Shown in pieces: positions 1,159 to 5,875 of a DNA stretch of 64,000 bases. How positions within the stretch are numbered: position 1 is the stretch's first letter; each line of letters begins with the position of its first letter. The translations under genes and the position numbers were made by a program. The notes under the pieces are model-generated. The model did no database searches. It was not told the origin of the DNA and saw nothing but the letters and a program-made list of their open reading frames with translations. Origin of the DNA: Thermoplasmata archaeon (lineage in GTDB: Archaea; Thermoplasmatota; Thermoplasmata; Thermoplasmatales; GCA-001856825). Where the stretch lies: contig JAJZYX010000003.1 of assembly GCA_021797855.1 (NCBI GenBank), positions 1 through 64,000 of the forward strand. Direction: 5' to 3'.

Positions 1159-1244
1159 ATATCTTAAATAATTATTTTCTTGATTCCTATGGATTATGCC
1201 TGGAAAAATCTTTATTCCCAATTCGTGTGGTGACGATTGTTGTA

Positions 1245-2306
1245 ATGAATATCTCGATGTATTTCCTAAAGAGGCTAGCTTCAATACCTCCTACTATTTT
1301 GGCAATTCTCTATTTTTTATTCGTGTTGTTTTCGGCGATAGGGAACCCCAATTCCAATTCATATTTTCCTTCTTTTTCCGATTCTATCTTTTCATATCTC
1401 GGAGCTTTCGGAAAGTTTGTATGGAATGTTTTAACGGGAAATTGGGGCTATCTTGTTGCCTTCCCTAAAGAGCAGACGTTTAGCGGTCCAGTTTCAGTGC
1501 TCATTAGCATATACTTCTTTTCAACTCTTGAAGTAGTTATTTTTGCAGCTACTATATCATTGATAGTCTCATTTCCTCTTGGAAGGTATCTAGGGACTCA
1601 CCATACATACAGGTTTGCTAAAATAAGCAGGTCAATAACTCTATTAGGATATCTCACTCCTGCCTATGTAACCGCTTTGGTCCTTCAGATACTGTTTGGC
1701 AAAGGGGTGATACGGGGAAACCCGCTAGCAATCTTCCCCATTACAGGTGCATTCGACGCAACTTCCCTTCCCTCCGAAATTACGAAGCCGAGCTGGTTGG
1801 AGAGCAATGGAATACTAATCTCAAGTCCTACTCACATGTTGCTCATCGATTCTCTCTTACATGGCGACTACACGCTGGCCTTCAATGTGTTTATGCACCT
1901 TGTCCTGCCTGTTGCAACACTCGTCATCAGTATCACCGCTATAGTCACGTTCTTGGTATCCTCTGCTTATACCGATCATATAGGTACGGAGTATGTGAAG
2001 AGCGCTAGAAGCAGGGGAGTTCCTGAAAGACAGATAGAAATAAGGCACGTTAGACCTAACGCTGTATTGCCAGTAATGGCTTCAGCCACAATAATGGTAG
2101 CATTTCTACTAAGCAACGTGATCATGATGGAGAATGTTTTTGACTACCCGGGGATTGGGCTATTTCTAGCTAATACAATTTCGTACGACCAGTACTATCC
2201 AACCGCAGTTGTGATTTTCCTACTAGGAGTGATGGTAATGCTGATTAGCCTTACCATCGACGTAATCTACTTTGCAAAGAATCCTCTAATCCGTAGGGAG
2301 GGTTGA
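1245..2306 (+). CDS. ABC transporter permease, DppB/OppB type (peptide/nickel family)
   Basis: Integral membrane protein of about 353 residues, of the BPD_transp_1 family that forms one half of the channel in peptide or nickel importers. It starts with the typical 'YFLKRLASIPPTILAILYF' first helix and carries the cytoplasmic EAA loop near residues 250-275 (YVKSARSRGVPERQIEIRHV, then PNAVLP), followed by the conserved 'ENVFDYPGIG' segment. I chose ATG 1245; in-frame GTGs at 1227 and 1230 are alternatives. The partner-type permease lies tail to tail 8 bp downstream on the other strand. No binding protein or ATPase is nearby, so the substrate is unknown. Confidence 0.85.
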   Translation: MNISMYFLKRLASIPPTILAILYFLFVLFSAIGNPNSNSYFPSFSDSIFSYLGAFGKFVWNVLTGNWGYLVAFPKEQTFSGPVSVLISIYFFSTLEVVIFAATISLIVSFPLGRYLGTHHTYRFAKISRSITLLGYLTPAYVTALVLQILFGKGVIRGNPLAIFPITGAFDATSLPSEITKPSWLESNGILISSPTHMLLIDSLLHGDYTLAFNVFMHLVLPVATLVISITAIVTFLVSSAYTDHIGTEYVKSARSRGVPERQIEIRHVRPNAVLPVMASATIMVAFLLSNVIMMENVFDYPGIGLFLANTISYDQYYPTAVVIFLLGVMVMLISLTIDVIYFAKNPLIRREG

Positions 2307-2314
2307 TATACTAT

Positions 2315-3307
2315 CTAAGTTGTCCGGGGGTCAAGCGCCTTTCTCATTCCGTCTGAAAGTGCGATCAAACCTATTACTAAAATGAGAAGGAACAAGACGG
2401 GAAAAAAGACTGTCCACCAATAGCCCATGTATAGGAACAGGGAAGCTGTAGCAGGAATGTATTGAGAACCAACCAAATGAAAACCAAACAGATATCCGAA
2501 TTCTGGAAATCCATTAATAAGAGCCCCTAATTCCGGTGTCGTTGCCAGCGGTGTGAATTGTTGCCAGAATAAGAAGTTGGTAGCGGAGAAAATCATTATT
2601 ACCGTCGCAATGTCTAGCGAGAACCTGATTAGAACGGGGGTAGCTATATTAGGAAAAACGTGAGAATATACGATGCGCAGATCAGACGCACCCGAAGCTC
2701 TTGCTGCCTCGATAAATTGGTTTCCCTTTATATTTAGTGTGAGCATTCTAGCTATTTGCGCGTAATATGCCCACAATACAGCAATTATCCCAATCGAAAT
2801 CGCGAAGAGTGTGAAATGAAGTAAGAACCCGAAAATTAAGACAGAGATGATTATAGGGATACTGATAAACGTATTAGACACGAAAGAAATGACCCATTCC
2901 AGCTTCTTAGTTAGGAATGCACCAGAAACTCCAATAAAAGTGCCTATTGTCGCACTCACTCCTGCTATCAATACGGCAAATCCCAAGTCTACCGGTATGG
3001 AAGCGAGTATGGCGGGGAGGATGGGAATCCCGTAGGCAGTAGTGCCTAATAAATATAGCAACCCCTCATTCGTTGTTGGCGGTGAAGGTTGCTTCATTAG
3101 AACTGACCTTATGCCAGGGTTAGAGAAAGAGAATAAATTAAATGCATTGCTTACGCCCAAATACTTCGGGTCTATGAAATCAAGCAGAGATATAATCAAA
3201 TATATCGTGACTATGATTGCTCCAACCTGAAATGATAGATTCCTCTTTAACCTTCCAGCAAAGGAATCTCCCAAAGACCATTTAATGTAGTTAGCTGTGA
3301 CCGACAT
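2315..3307 (-). CDS. ABC transporter permease, DppC/OppC type (peptide/nickel family)
   Basis: About 330 residues with six predicted helices and the EAA loop 'EAARASGASDLRIVYSHVFPN' broken by the usual spacing, followed by 'ATPVLIRFSLDIATVIM', as in DppC. I took the ATG at 3307 because about 27 residues before the first helix is typical; an ATG at 3418 would add 37 residues without family resemblance. DppB and DppC are normally consecutive in one operon, but here they are convergent, 8 bp apart, and no solute-binding protein or ATPase gene is in sight. The pair probably works with components encoded elsewhere. Confidence 0.83.
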   Translation of the reverse strand: MSVTANYIKWSLGDSFAGRLKRNLSFQVGAIIVTIYLIISLLDFIDPKYLGVSNAFNLFSFSNPGIRSVLMKQPSPPTTNEGLLYLLGTTAYGIPILPAILASIPVDLGFAVLIAGVSATIGTFIGVSGAFLTKKLEWVISFVSNTFISIPIIISVLIFGFLLHFTLFAISIGIIAVLWAYYAQIARMLTLNIKGNQFIEAARASGASDLRIVYSHVFPNIATPVLIRFSLDIATVIMIFSATNFLFWQQFTPLATTPELGALINGFPEFGYLFGFHLVGSQYIPATASLFLYMGYWWTVFFPVLFLLILVIGLIALSDGMRKALDPRTT

Positions 3308-3442
3308 CCTTTTGGGGATTAATATTGCAACTGTTCTTAACCTTTCGTAGATTATAAGAGTGTTGAGACTGCATTGCCTTCCTCGAAATACAAAAATGTT
3401 ATTAGGCAAAGACGACATTCGTGAACACGAAGGGGAAAGGAT

Positions 3443-4303: not shown

Positions 4304-5875
4304 CTATCCTTTCTGCTCATTTTTTATCTTTATTTCCTTTCTCAATTCCGCACTCAACCTCCCGAGTTCCTCCTCCTTGGTGTTCAGAAATTTGAAGGCC
4401 GGGGTTATGGAAGGGTTCACTTCCAACACGCGATCAACCATCACTCTGCTTAATCTTCTTAAATCGAAATGGGCCTGCGGTGTTGATCTCAGGTCCGTAA
4501 GATAGACCAGCTCCCTGAGGTTGACTGTTACTATGATTGGATGCTTGTGGGCAAACAAGACAACGTACTGAGCGGCATTGCGGTCTTCGGAATATATGTC
4601 ATTGAACAGTTTCCTTGATTCCTCCATCACATTCATATATTCTTTCAACAACTCCCGGATATTTGAGACAATAGGAGGGATGTCGTAACCGAAATTGGGG
4701 GTAAGCTTCTTCCTCTGAACTGTCAGGGTCCTGTGTCTTTGGAAGTCCCTAAATGCGCCGAAATTTGTGTTGATCTCGAAGGTGTAGCGAACATGTTCAA
4801 AGCTTCTGTCCGGCTTCTGTCTCCTGTTACCCCTTAGTGACATTATCCTGTTTAGCATTTCCCTCTTCTTGGATATGTCAAGAGAGGATATCGCAGAGTA
4901 TAGGGCAGCAAATTCCCCATCAGTGCGCTCGAAATAATGGGCGGAAAGCACGTTGTTTATGACCTTTTCATCCCCTTCGTGGAAGATCAACCTTACTTCT
5001 TCGCCAAACGATGAATCCGCAGATATCGGTTCCGGCAATACTGTTGAAATCTTTTTCAGGTACTCAATGCCTTCAATTCCGTGTGGTTTCTCTACATTGT
5101 CTATTAGCTTCGGAAAGACTAGCTTTAGCTCTGACAAAAGGTCTTTGTAAAGTTTATCCGCTTCCTTTAATTGGCTGGATTTGAGCCTCTCGAGCAGGTG
5201 AGAGAAAGCCCTGGCATTTCCACTTATTCCTATATTTGTGAGTGTGGAGGCTGGAAGGAGAAATCGCGCCTCATCGAGTGTTCTGCTCCTGACTGAAGAA
5301 TCGTAGGCTTTTCTCATCATTTCTTCAGTGATGCCTCCGTCCCCTGGATTGATCTCCTTCCCACCGGGAAGGTAAAACCTCGTGTTTTCAAAGGGGTTGT
5401 TCTCACGGATATATGAAGCTACTCCGTCTGCCACCCTTTCATAAAGCTCGAAAATAGATTCGTTGAACTCTTCATACCTCTTCTGGAATTTCTGGGGGAT
5501 TCCCGCTGAATCCGCTTCCAAATAGAGGTACTTACCATCCTTCTTGTCCCTATAGGAAACGTACCTAGAACTCTTCTCCAGATATGATAAACCGATTCTG
5601 CTCTCCTCTATGATCTTTGAAAGAACATTGCTGACGTTTTGTATTCCGACCTGTGCGGTAGCCAATTCCGCGACAGACTCGTCACCGTACTCCAAGAACA
5701 CTCGTTCGTAGAATTTTTCTGCCCTGTCGGGAACTCCCTCAAATTCCTTGTCCCAGAGCTTCCTGATGTCCAATTCCCTAGTCCTGCTGTAGCGCGACAT
5801 GAGAGCTCCCCTATCTATCATCTTTTCGCAAGTTATAAGGAAAACATCCTTGTCACGGTTGGAAAATGAGTCCAT
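4304..5875 (-). CDS. Tandem (double-domain) ThyX-like protein
   Basis: A 523-residue protein with two ThyX-like halves (about 20-240 and 300-510); classical flavin-dependent thymidylate synthase ThyX has a single domain of about 220 residues and works as a tetramer. In the N-half, residues 91-105 read ESRIGLSYLEKSSRY, which keeps the S-x2-E-x-S-x-RY end of the ThyX signature but has lost RHR. In the C-half, RHR is present at 380-382, followed by TLTVQRKKL instead of the signature tail; an 'FEHVRYTF' motif (about 359-366) supplies the usual Glu-His. So each half keeps a different part of the motif. A TATA-like box at about 5893-5903 supports ATG 5875. Whether it makes dTMP cannot be decided from sequence. 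Confidence 0.8.
   Translation of the reverse strand: MDSFSNRDKDVFLITCEKMIDRGALMSRYSRTRELDIRKLWDKEFEGVPDRAEKFYERVFLEYGDESVAELATAQVGIQNVSNVLSKIIEESRIGLSYLEKSSRYVSYRDKKDGKYLYLEADSAGIPQKFQKRYEEFNESIFELYERVADGVASYIRENNPFENTRFYLPGGKEINPGDGGITEEMMRKAYDSSVRSRTLDEARFLLPASTLTNIGISGNARAFSHLLERLKSSQLKEADKLYKDLLSELKLVFPKLIDNVEKPHGIEGIEYLKKISTVLPEPISADSSFGEEVRLIFHEGDEKVINNVLSAHYFERTDGEFAALYSAISSLDISKKREMLNRIMSLRGNRRQKPDRSFEHVRYTFEINTNFGAFRDFQRHRTLTVQRKKLTPNFGYDIPPIVSNIRELLKEYMNVMEESRKLFNDIYSEDRNAAQYVVLFAHKHPIIVTVNLRELVYLTDLRSTPQAHFDLRRLSRVMVDRVLEVNPSITPAFKFLNTKEEELGRLSAELRKEIKIKNEQKG

Follow-up and report, generated by a model that had tools for sequence, protein, structure and literature searches.

A domain-duplicated ThyX of Thermoplasmata with the thymidylate synthase active-site residues divided between its two halves

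Introduction

In the MtbThyX and HpThyX thymidylate synthases the FAD of one active site is held by the RHR motif of subunit A together with Ser71 and Arg190 of subunit B, while dUMP is bound by Arg95 and Arg199 of subunit A and by Arg87, Ser105 and Arg107 of subunit C, whose Tyr108 forms the lid (PMC6514825). The M. tuberculosis (Mtb) numbering used here was verified against the 3gwc sequence. The T. maritima (Tm) enzyme has four sites, each at a three-monomer interface; R78 lies opposite the flavin N1, S88 and Y91 are critical, and H53 is supplied by the third monomer (PMC11940539). R174 takes part in dUMP activation (PMC8316439).

A domain-duplicated ThyX of Chloroflexi was noted in 2009, as uncharacterised (PMC3224940). 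In the ThyX-MsrB fusion of Thaumarchaeota the ThyX domain keeps the flavin site and loses S88, and the protein is predicted not to make dTMP (PMC6211008). Neither a later study of a duplicated ThyX nor a solved structure or assay of one was found in the literature searched, subscription papers lying outside that search. The statement in the original prediction that no function had been described for such double proteins fits this literature, although the duplication itself was already known. Here we analyse a double ThyX encoded in the window, the stretch of 64,000 nucleotides of a Thermoplasmata archaeon that was examined, and its relatives in other archaea, bacteria, plasmids and phages.

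Results

The gene and its two ThyX domains

The gene, its domains and the residues discussed below are, with protein numbering and Tm equivalents, as follows.

4304..5875, minus strand: double ThyX gene, 523 aa (P0001), an intact ORF with two PF02511 matches
5111..5740, minus strand: N-terminal Thy1 domain (PF02511, residues 46-255; Pfam, E 4.7e-22)
5672..5686, minus strand: N-half residues 64-68, GDESV, with S67 at the Mtb Ser71/Tm Thr55 position and D65 at the Tm His53 position
5561..5605, minus strand: N-half residues 91-105, ESRIGLSYLEKSSRY, RHR lost and E100, S102, R104 and Y105 kept (Tm E86, S88, R90 and Y91)
5264..5266, minus strand: N-half R204 (Tm R147)
4412..4990, minus strand: C-terminal Thy1 domain (PF02511; Pfam, E 3.3e-20)
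4730..4738, minus strand: C-half RHR, residues 380-382 (Tm R78-R80, FAD side)
4487..4489, minus strand: C-half R463 (Tm R174, dUMP activation)

The 523-residue protein scores 150.7 bits against the Pfam Thy1 profile in two matches (gathering cut-off 24.8), and a Pfam scan returned Thy1, a weak DUF5856 and nothing else. Against the NCBIfam ThyX equivalog TIGR02170 it scores 87.8 bits, 0.1 short of the cut-off of 87.9. In profile-profile comparisons with single ThyX the family N-halves gave a probability of 99.3 and the C-halves 99.1, while N-halves matched C-halves with an E value of 1.3e-5. Judged from the double Pfam match and the profile comparison of each half, the protein is composed of two diverged ThyX domains. 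An assembly artefact was ruled out, as the same architecture recurs in nine further species of its genus as well as in single-contig genomes. None of the neighbouring genes in the window is related to nucleotide metabolism. A fused class II aldolase and short-chain dehydrogenase (PF00596 and PF13561; 5979-7949) is divergent to the double ThyX gene, and two transport permease genes (PF00528) on opposite strands converge at 1227-3418.

Division of the active-site residues

The window protein carries the dUMP-side set, E100, S102, R104, Y105 and R204, in its N-half, and RHR together with R463 in its C-half. From residue 380 the C-half reads RHRTLTVQRKKLTP, in which RHR (380-382) is followed by TLTVQRKKLTP and not by ExSxRY; FEH stands upstream at 359-361. 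A contiguous RHRx7S within one domain is absent, RHR being confined to the C-half and ExSxRY to the N-half, yet the full ThyX catalytic set is present across the protein, with equivalents of E86, S88, R90, Y91 and R147 in the N-half and of R78, H79, R80 and R174 in the C-half. The original prediction had read the N-half as lacking RHR but retaining SxxExSxRY, and the C-half as having RHR and an upstream Glu-His but no tail; both readings are borne out by residues 91-105 and 359-382, respectively. In addition to what was claimed there, R204 and R463 are divided between the halves in the same way.

Conservation of the split

Doubles were gathered with the PF02511 profile on whole genomes, by tblastn for plasmids and phages, and from genome and viral contigs, giving 132 non-redundant sequences from archaea, bacteria, plasmids and phages. 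Their N-halves conserve E100, S102, R104 and R204 in 100% and Y105 in 96%, and their C-halves R380 and H381 in 100%, R382 in 98% and R463 in 99%. The reciprocal positions scatter: in the N-half W, D, E, R or S is found at R78 and G, W or S at H79, and in the C-half P, R, L or K at S88, S, T or G at R90, and Q, P, A or S at R147. Among 16 doubles with identities down to 22%, E100, S102, R104, Y105 and R204 (N-half) and R380, H381, R382, R463 and R473 (C-half) are invariant. When the deepest groups are included (39 doubles), S88, R90, Y91 and R147 occur in 39/39 N-halves and R78, H79, R80 and R174 in 39/39 C-halves. No Arg appears in these 39 among the residues listed at R174 in the N-half or at R147 in the C-half; the register at R174 in the N-half differs between alignments, and this position is therefore termed not conserved rather than lost.

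As the contig sets had been seeded with motif patterns, which could favour the split, the tally was redone on sets obtained with the Pfam profile only (21 Thermoplasmatales, 4+4 other Thermoplasmatota, 28 Chloroflexota and 6 of one Chloroflexota order, with two genomes shared). All Pfam-only doubles tallied have RHR and no ExSxRY in the C-half; the tally required ExSxRY in the N-half, which left out one Chloroflexota double (L238) and would also miss a swapped arrangement. No swapped arrangement, with RHR in the N-half and ExSxRY in the C-half, was seen among the doubles listed. The complementary loss proposed from the single sequence thus holds at equivalent positions across the family; degeneration of the two motifs at non-equivalent positions was looked for and not found. 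Chance degeneration was ruled out by the family-wide invariance of the divided residues.

Some doubles depart from the common pattern. On inspection by eye, the N-half loop of the double L238 (genome G059) is SRSTRY, with Ser replacing E86, and in the Bacillus and Paenibacillus plasmid doubles L048 and L051 the C-half RHR has become RHNR, one residue having been inserted into the FAD motif. Within the 132 doubles the His53 position is Asp in every Thermoplasmatales member and in 69/71 bacterial ones, and His in most viral ones. This natural H53D is the substitution that was made deliberately in T. maritima ThyX (PDB 4kar/4kas).

Predicted structure

An AlphaFold2 model of the single chain (97 sequences; mean pLDDT 93.8, pTM 0.90) is a confident two-domain ThyX. 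The best 50 Foldseek matches in the PDB are all ThyX chains with probability 1.00, including 1o2x, 4gt9 and 6j61; TM scores by target reach 0.74, covering one half, and no ThyX of ~500 residues was among the solved structures found. The protein is thus predicted to fold as ThyX. The model of a 461-residue viral protein aligns with that of the window protein over its full length (529 columns, TM 0.69/0.78, 17% identity), and the arrangement of the halves thus recurs in an independent model.

Distribution of double ThyX

The window's own genome and 40 relatives of its order, including single-contig genomes of 99% completeness, were searched for thymidylate synthases. Of these 41 genomes, 23 have the double as their sole form and 17 a single ThyX; no genome has both, and in one, which is 82% complete, neither was found. 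No match to ThyA (PF00303) was found in the 41, the window's own included. The assembly that contains the window is 52% complete and has no second ThyX and no ThyA, in agreement with its near-complete relatives; a normal synthase accompanied by an unrelated fold of the double was not found, the predicted fold matching ThyX. A search for thymidine kinase gave matches in 6/41 genomes and none in the window's own family.

Among 81 Chloroflexota genomes there are 36 doubles and 35 singles, and a single genome with a double has a ThyA-family match, which is partial (50 bits). A full ThyA accompanies the double ThyX (L052, L185) in one of 12 further bacterial genomes that contain doubles, that of a Parabacteroides (G049), and a P. 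distasonis plasmid carries a related double (L045) four genes from dihydrofolate reductase (DHFR). The genes near doubles on phages and plasmids include those for dUTPase and dCMP deaminase, dCTP deaminase, or DHFR. Within the order, the distribution of the double as the sole enzyme supports a role in FAD-dependent dTMP synthesis.

Intermediates and order of loss

In a domain tree calculated without the motif columns, the N-halves lie together to one side of a branch with support 71, and the C-halves lie together likewise with support 94. Other Thermoplasmatota families and one Chloroflexota genome (G131) form one group apart from the remaining doubles in both subtrees, and among those remaining a Chloroflexota order (that of G120) and a Thermoplasmatota family (f16) are among the deepest, again in both. 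The Chloroflexota order has a complete N-half motif, RHRLAAYTQHSGRY, in 5/6 genomes and QHR in the sixth, while the family f16 has RHR twice, SHR once and HHR once. In total, seven doubles retain RHR in the N-half and three have QHR, SHR or HHR (L248-L253, L260-L263), with the C-half RHR intact; in all of these doubles the C-half dUMP loop is already lost. Variation of the first Arg of the N-half RHR within one family is expected of a residue that is no longer needed.

The doubles with a full or partial N-half RHR are apparent evolutionary intermediates. The simplest order of events suggested by these sequences is that the C-half dUMP loop was lost first and the N-half RHR decayed later.

A second, deeply separate group (L264-L267 and L226; Thermoplasmatota f10, f23, f30 and f31 with Chloroflexota G131) has SHP in place of the N-half RHR in 4/5 members, for example FLHSHPFYNSEQ.SQRY, and might represent an independent fusion with the same split. 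As the deep branches are long and partly unresolved, one fusion cannot be told from two with certainty. In the long frames L268 and L269 (G146, G164) a single complete motif (RHRKSSPNGESGRY) lies ~390-450 residues from the start, preceded by an N-terminal part that is not recognised as a ThyX half.

Discussion

When the published subunit roles are mapped on the doubles, residues of the A role are conserved only in the C-half and those of the C role only in the N-half. The Ser71/Thr55 position is Ser or Thr in 39/39 N-halves and scattered in C-halves, and for this reason the B role is also assigned to an N-half; no such difference between the halves is seen at the Arg190/R165 position. In the MtbThyX structures (PMC6514825) a single site draws these two residue sets from different subunits. 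The split therefore predicts one composite site for each chain, which lends support to the composite site per fused pair suggested originally.

We propose that tandem fusion of two ThyX domains produced a protein in which the C-half would keep the role of subunit A, its RHR holding FAD and its R174 equivalent acting on dUMP. The N-half would keep the role of subunit C through the E86/S88/R90/Y91 loop and R147, and would also supply the conserved Ser of subunit B. Two such chains would assemble as a pseudo-tetramer in which two sites are composite and the two reciprocal positions are dead, compared with four identical sites in the classical enzyme. By analogy, and assuming the three mutually perpendicular twofold axes of the classical enzyme, each site would combine one C-half with two different N-halves, giving two sites per two chains. 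The chemistry would be that of ThyX, reduced FAD transferring the methylene of CH2-THF to dUMP. The protein is not a classical ThyX by the strict motif definition and most likely works like one.

We put at about 85% the probability that the double works as a thymidylate synthase, in the form of an obligate asymmetric pseudo-dimer whose homodimer has two sites where the classical tetramer has four; its activity, its binding of FAD and dUMP, its oligomeric state and which N-half acts in cis are what we infer. The equivalog score 0.1 bit below its cut-off, the Asp at the H53 position in the window's order and in most bacterial doubles, and the Ser at the E86 position in one Chloroflexota double count against this reading. 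The wider view, which we hold at somewhat better than even odds, is that the doubles form a widespread thymidylate synthase class for which fusion and complementary decay would have made an obligate asymmetric pseudo-heterotetramer out of a homotetramer, the intermediates revealing the order of loss and each site being built from one C-half and two N-halves. Part of the same view, and sharing its odds, is that the C-half R147 and N-half R174 would also have gone before the N-half RHR.

An alternative raised in the original prediction is a different flavoenzyme, such as a methylase or reductase that depends on FAD and uses another substrate, with dTMP coming from a different route. The lack of a contiguous RHRx7S and the equivalog score just below its cut-off are compatible with this, as is the proposal that the S88-less ThyX-like domain of archaeal ThyX-MsrB is a flavin electron relay (PMC6211008). 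However, the residues of dUMP chemistry (equivalents of S88, R90, R147 and R174) are invariant, a constraint that a new substrate would not impose, and doubles replace single ThyX one for one within an order whose 41 genomes gave no ThyA match. The alternative gained no positive support, and we regard it as improbable. Even less credible is a protein with one catalytic half and one decayed structural or regulatory half: each half does appear degenerate when read alone, but neither half of the window protein contains the complete set, and both hold residues 98-100% conserved in 132 sequences, which decay would not keep. Two working sites per chain, with other residues standing in (for example the N-half residue 230, R in 64% and K in 10% and beside a one-residue deletion, or K87, conserved in 97%), is equally hard to sustain, as outside the deep clades no conserved N-half residue corresponds to H79 of RHR, and the C-half lacks a conserved Ser or Arg that would substitute for S88 and R90.

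If the working-synthase reading is correct, an essential enzyme with four identical sites, each borrowing from three subunits, was reduced after fusion to half that number of sites and to halves that depend on each other. It would then be a clear example of complementary degeneration whose intermediates survive. Annotation is affected as well: in public records these proteins are labelled FAD-dependent thymidylate synthase, yet a motif check of either half alone would read it as dead. Each half can be mutated without the other, something a homotetramer does not allow, and the doubles so offer a direct experimental handle on the subunit roles of ThyX.

Thaumarchaeal ThyX-MsrB is fused to MsrB and has no complementary ThyX partner, unlike the doubles. 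The duplicated ThyX of Chloroflexi has the same tandem architecture, and its active site is not analysed in the accessible text of PMC3224940. To that text the present work adds the split and its invariance, the intermediates, and the members from archaea, actinobacteria, plasmids and phages. Within the literature searched, the tandem architecture was already known; what appears to be new is the complementary division of the site with its invariance, the intermediates and the occurrence of the double as sole synthase. With classical ThyX (PF02511/TIGR02170; T. maritima TM0449 and M. tuberculosis ThyX) the double shares its fold and residue set, and probably the FAD, dUMP and CH2-THF chemistry. 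In contrast to the classical enzyme, whose place it takes within the order, its two domains are fused and share out the site residues, RHRx7S is no longer contiguous, and half as many sites are expected per four domains.
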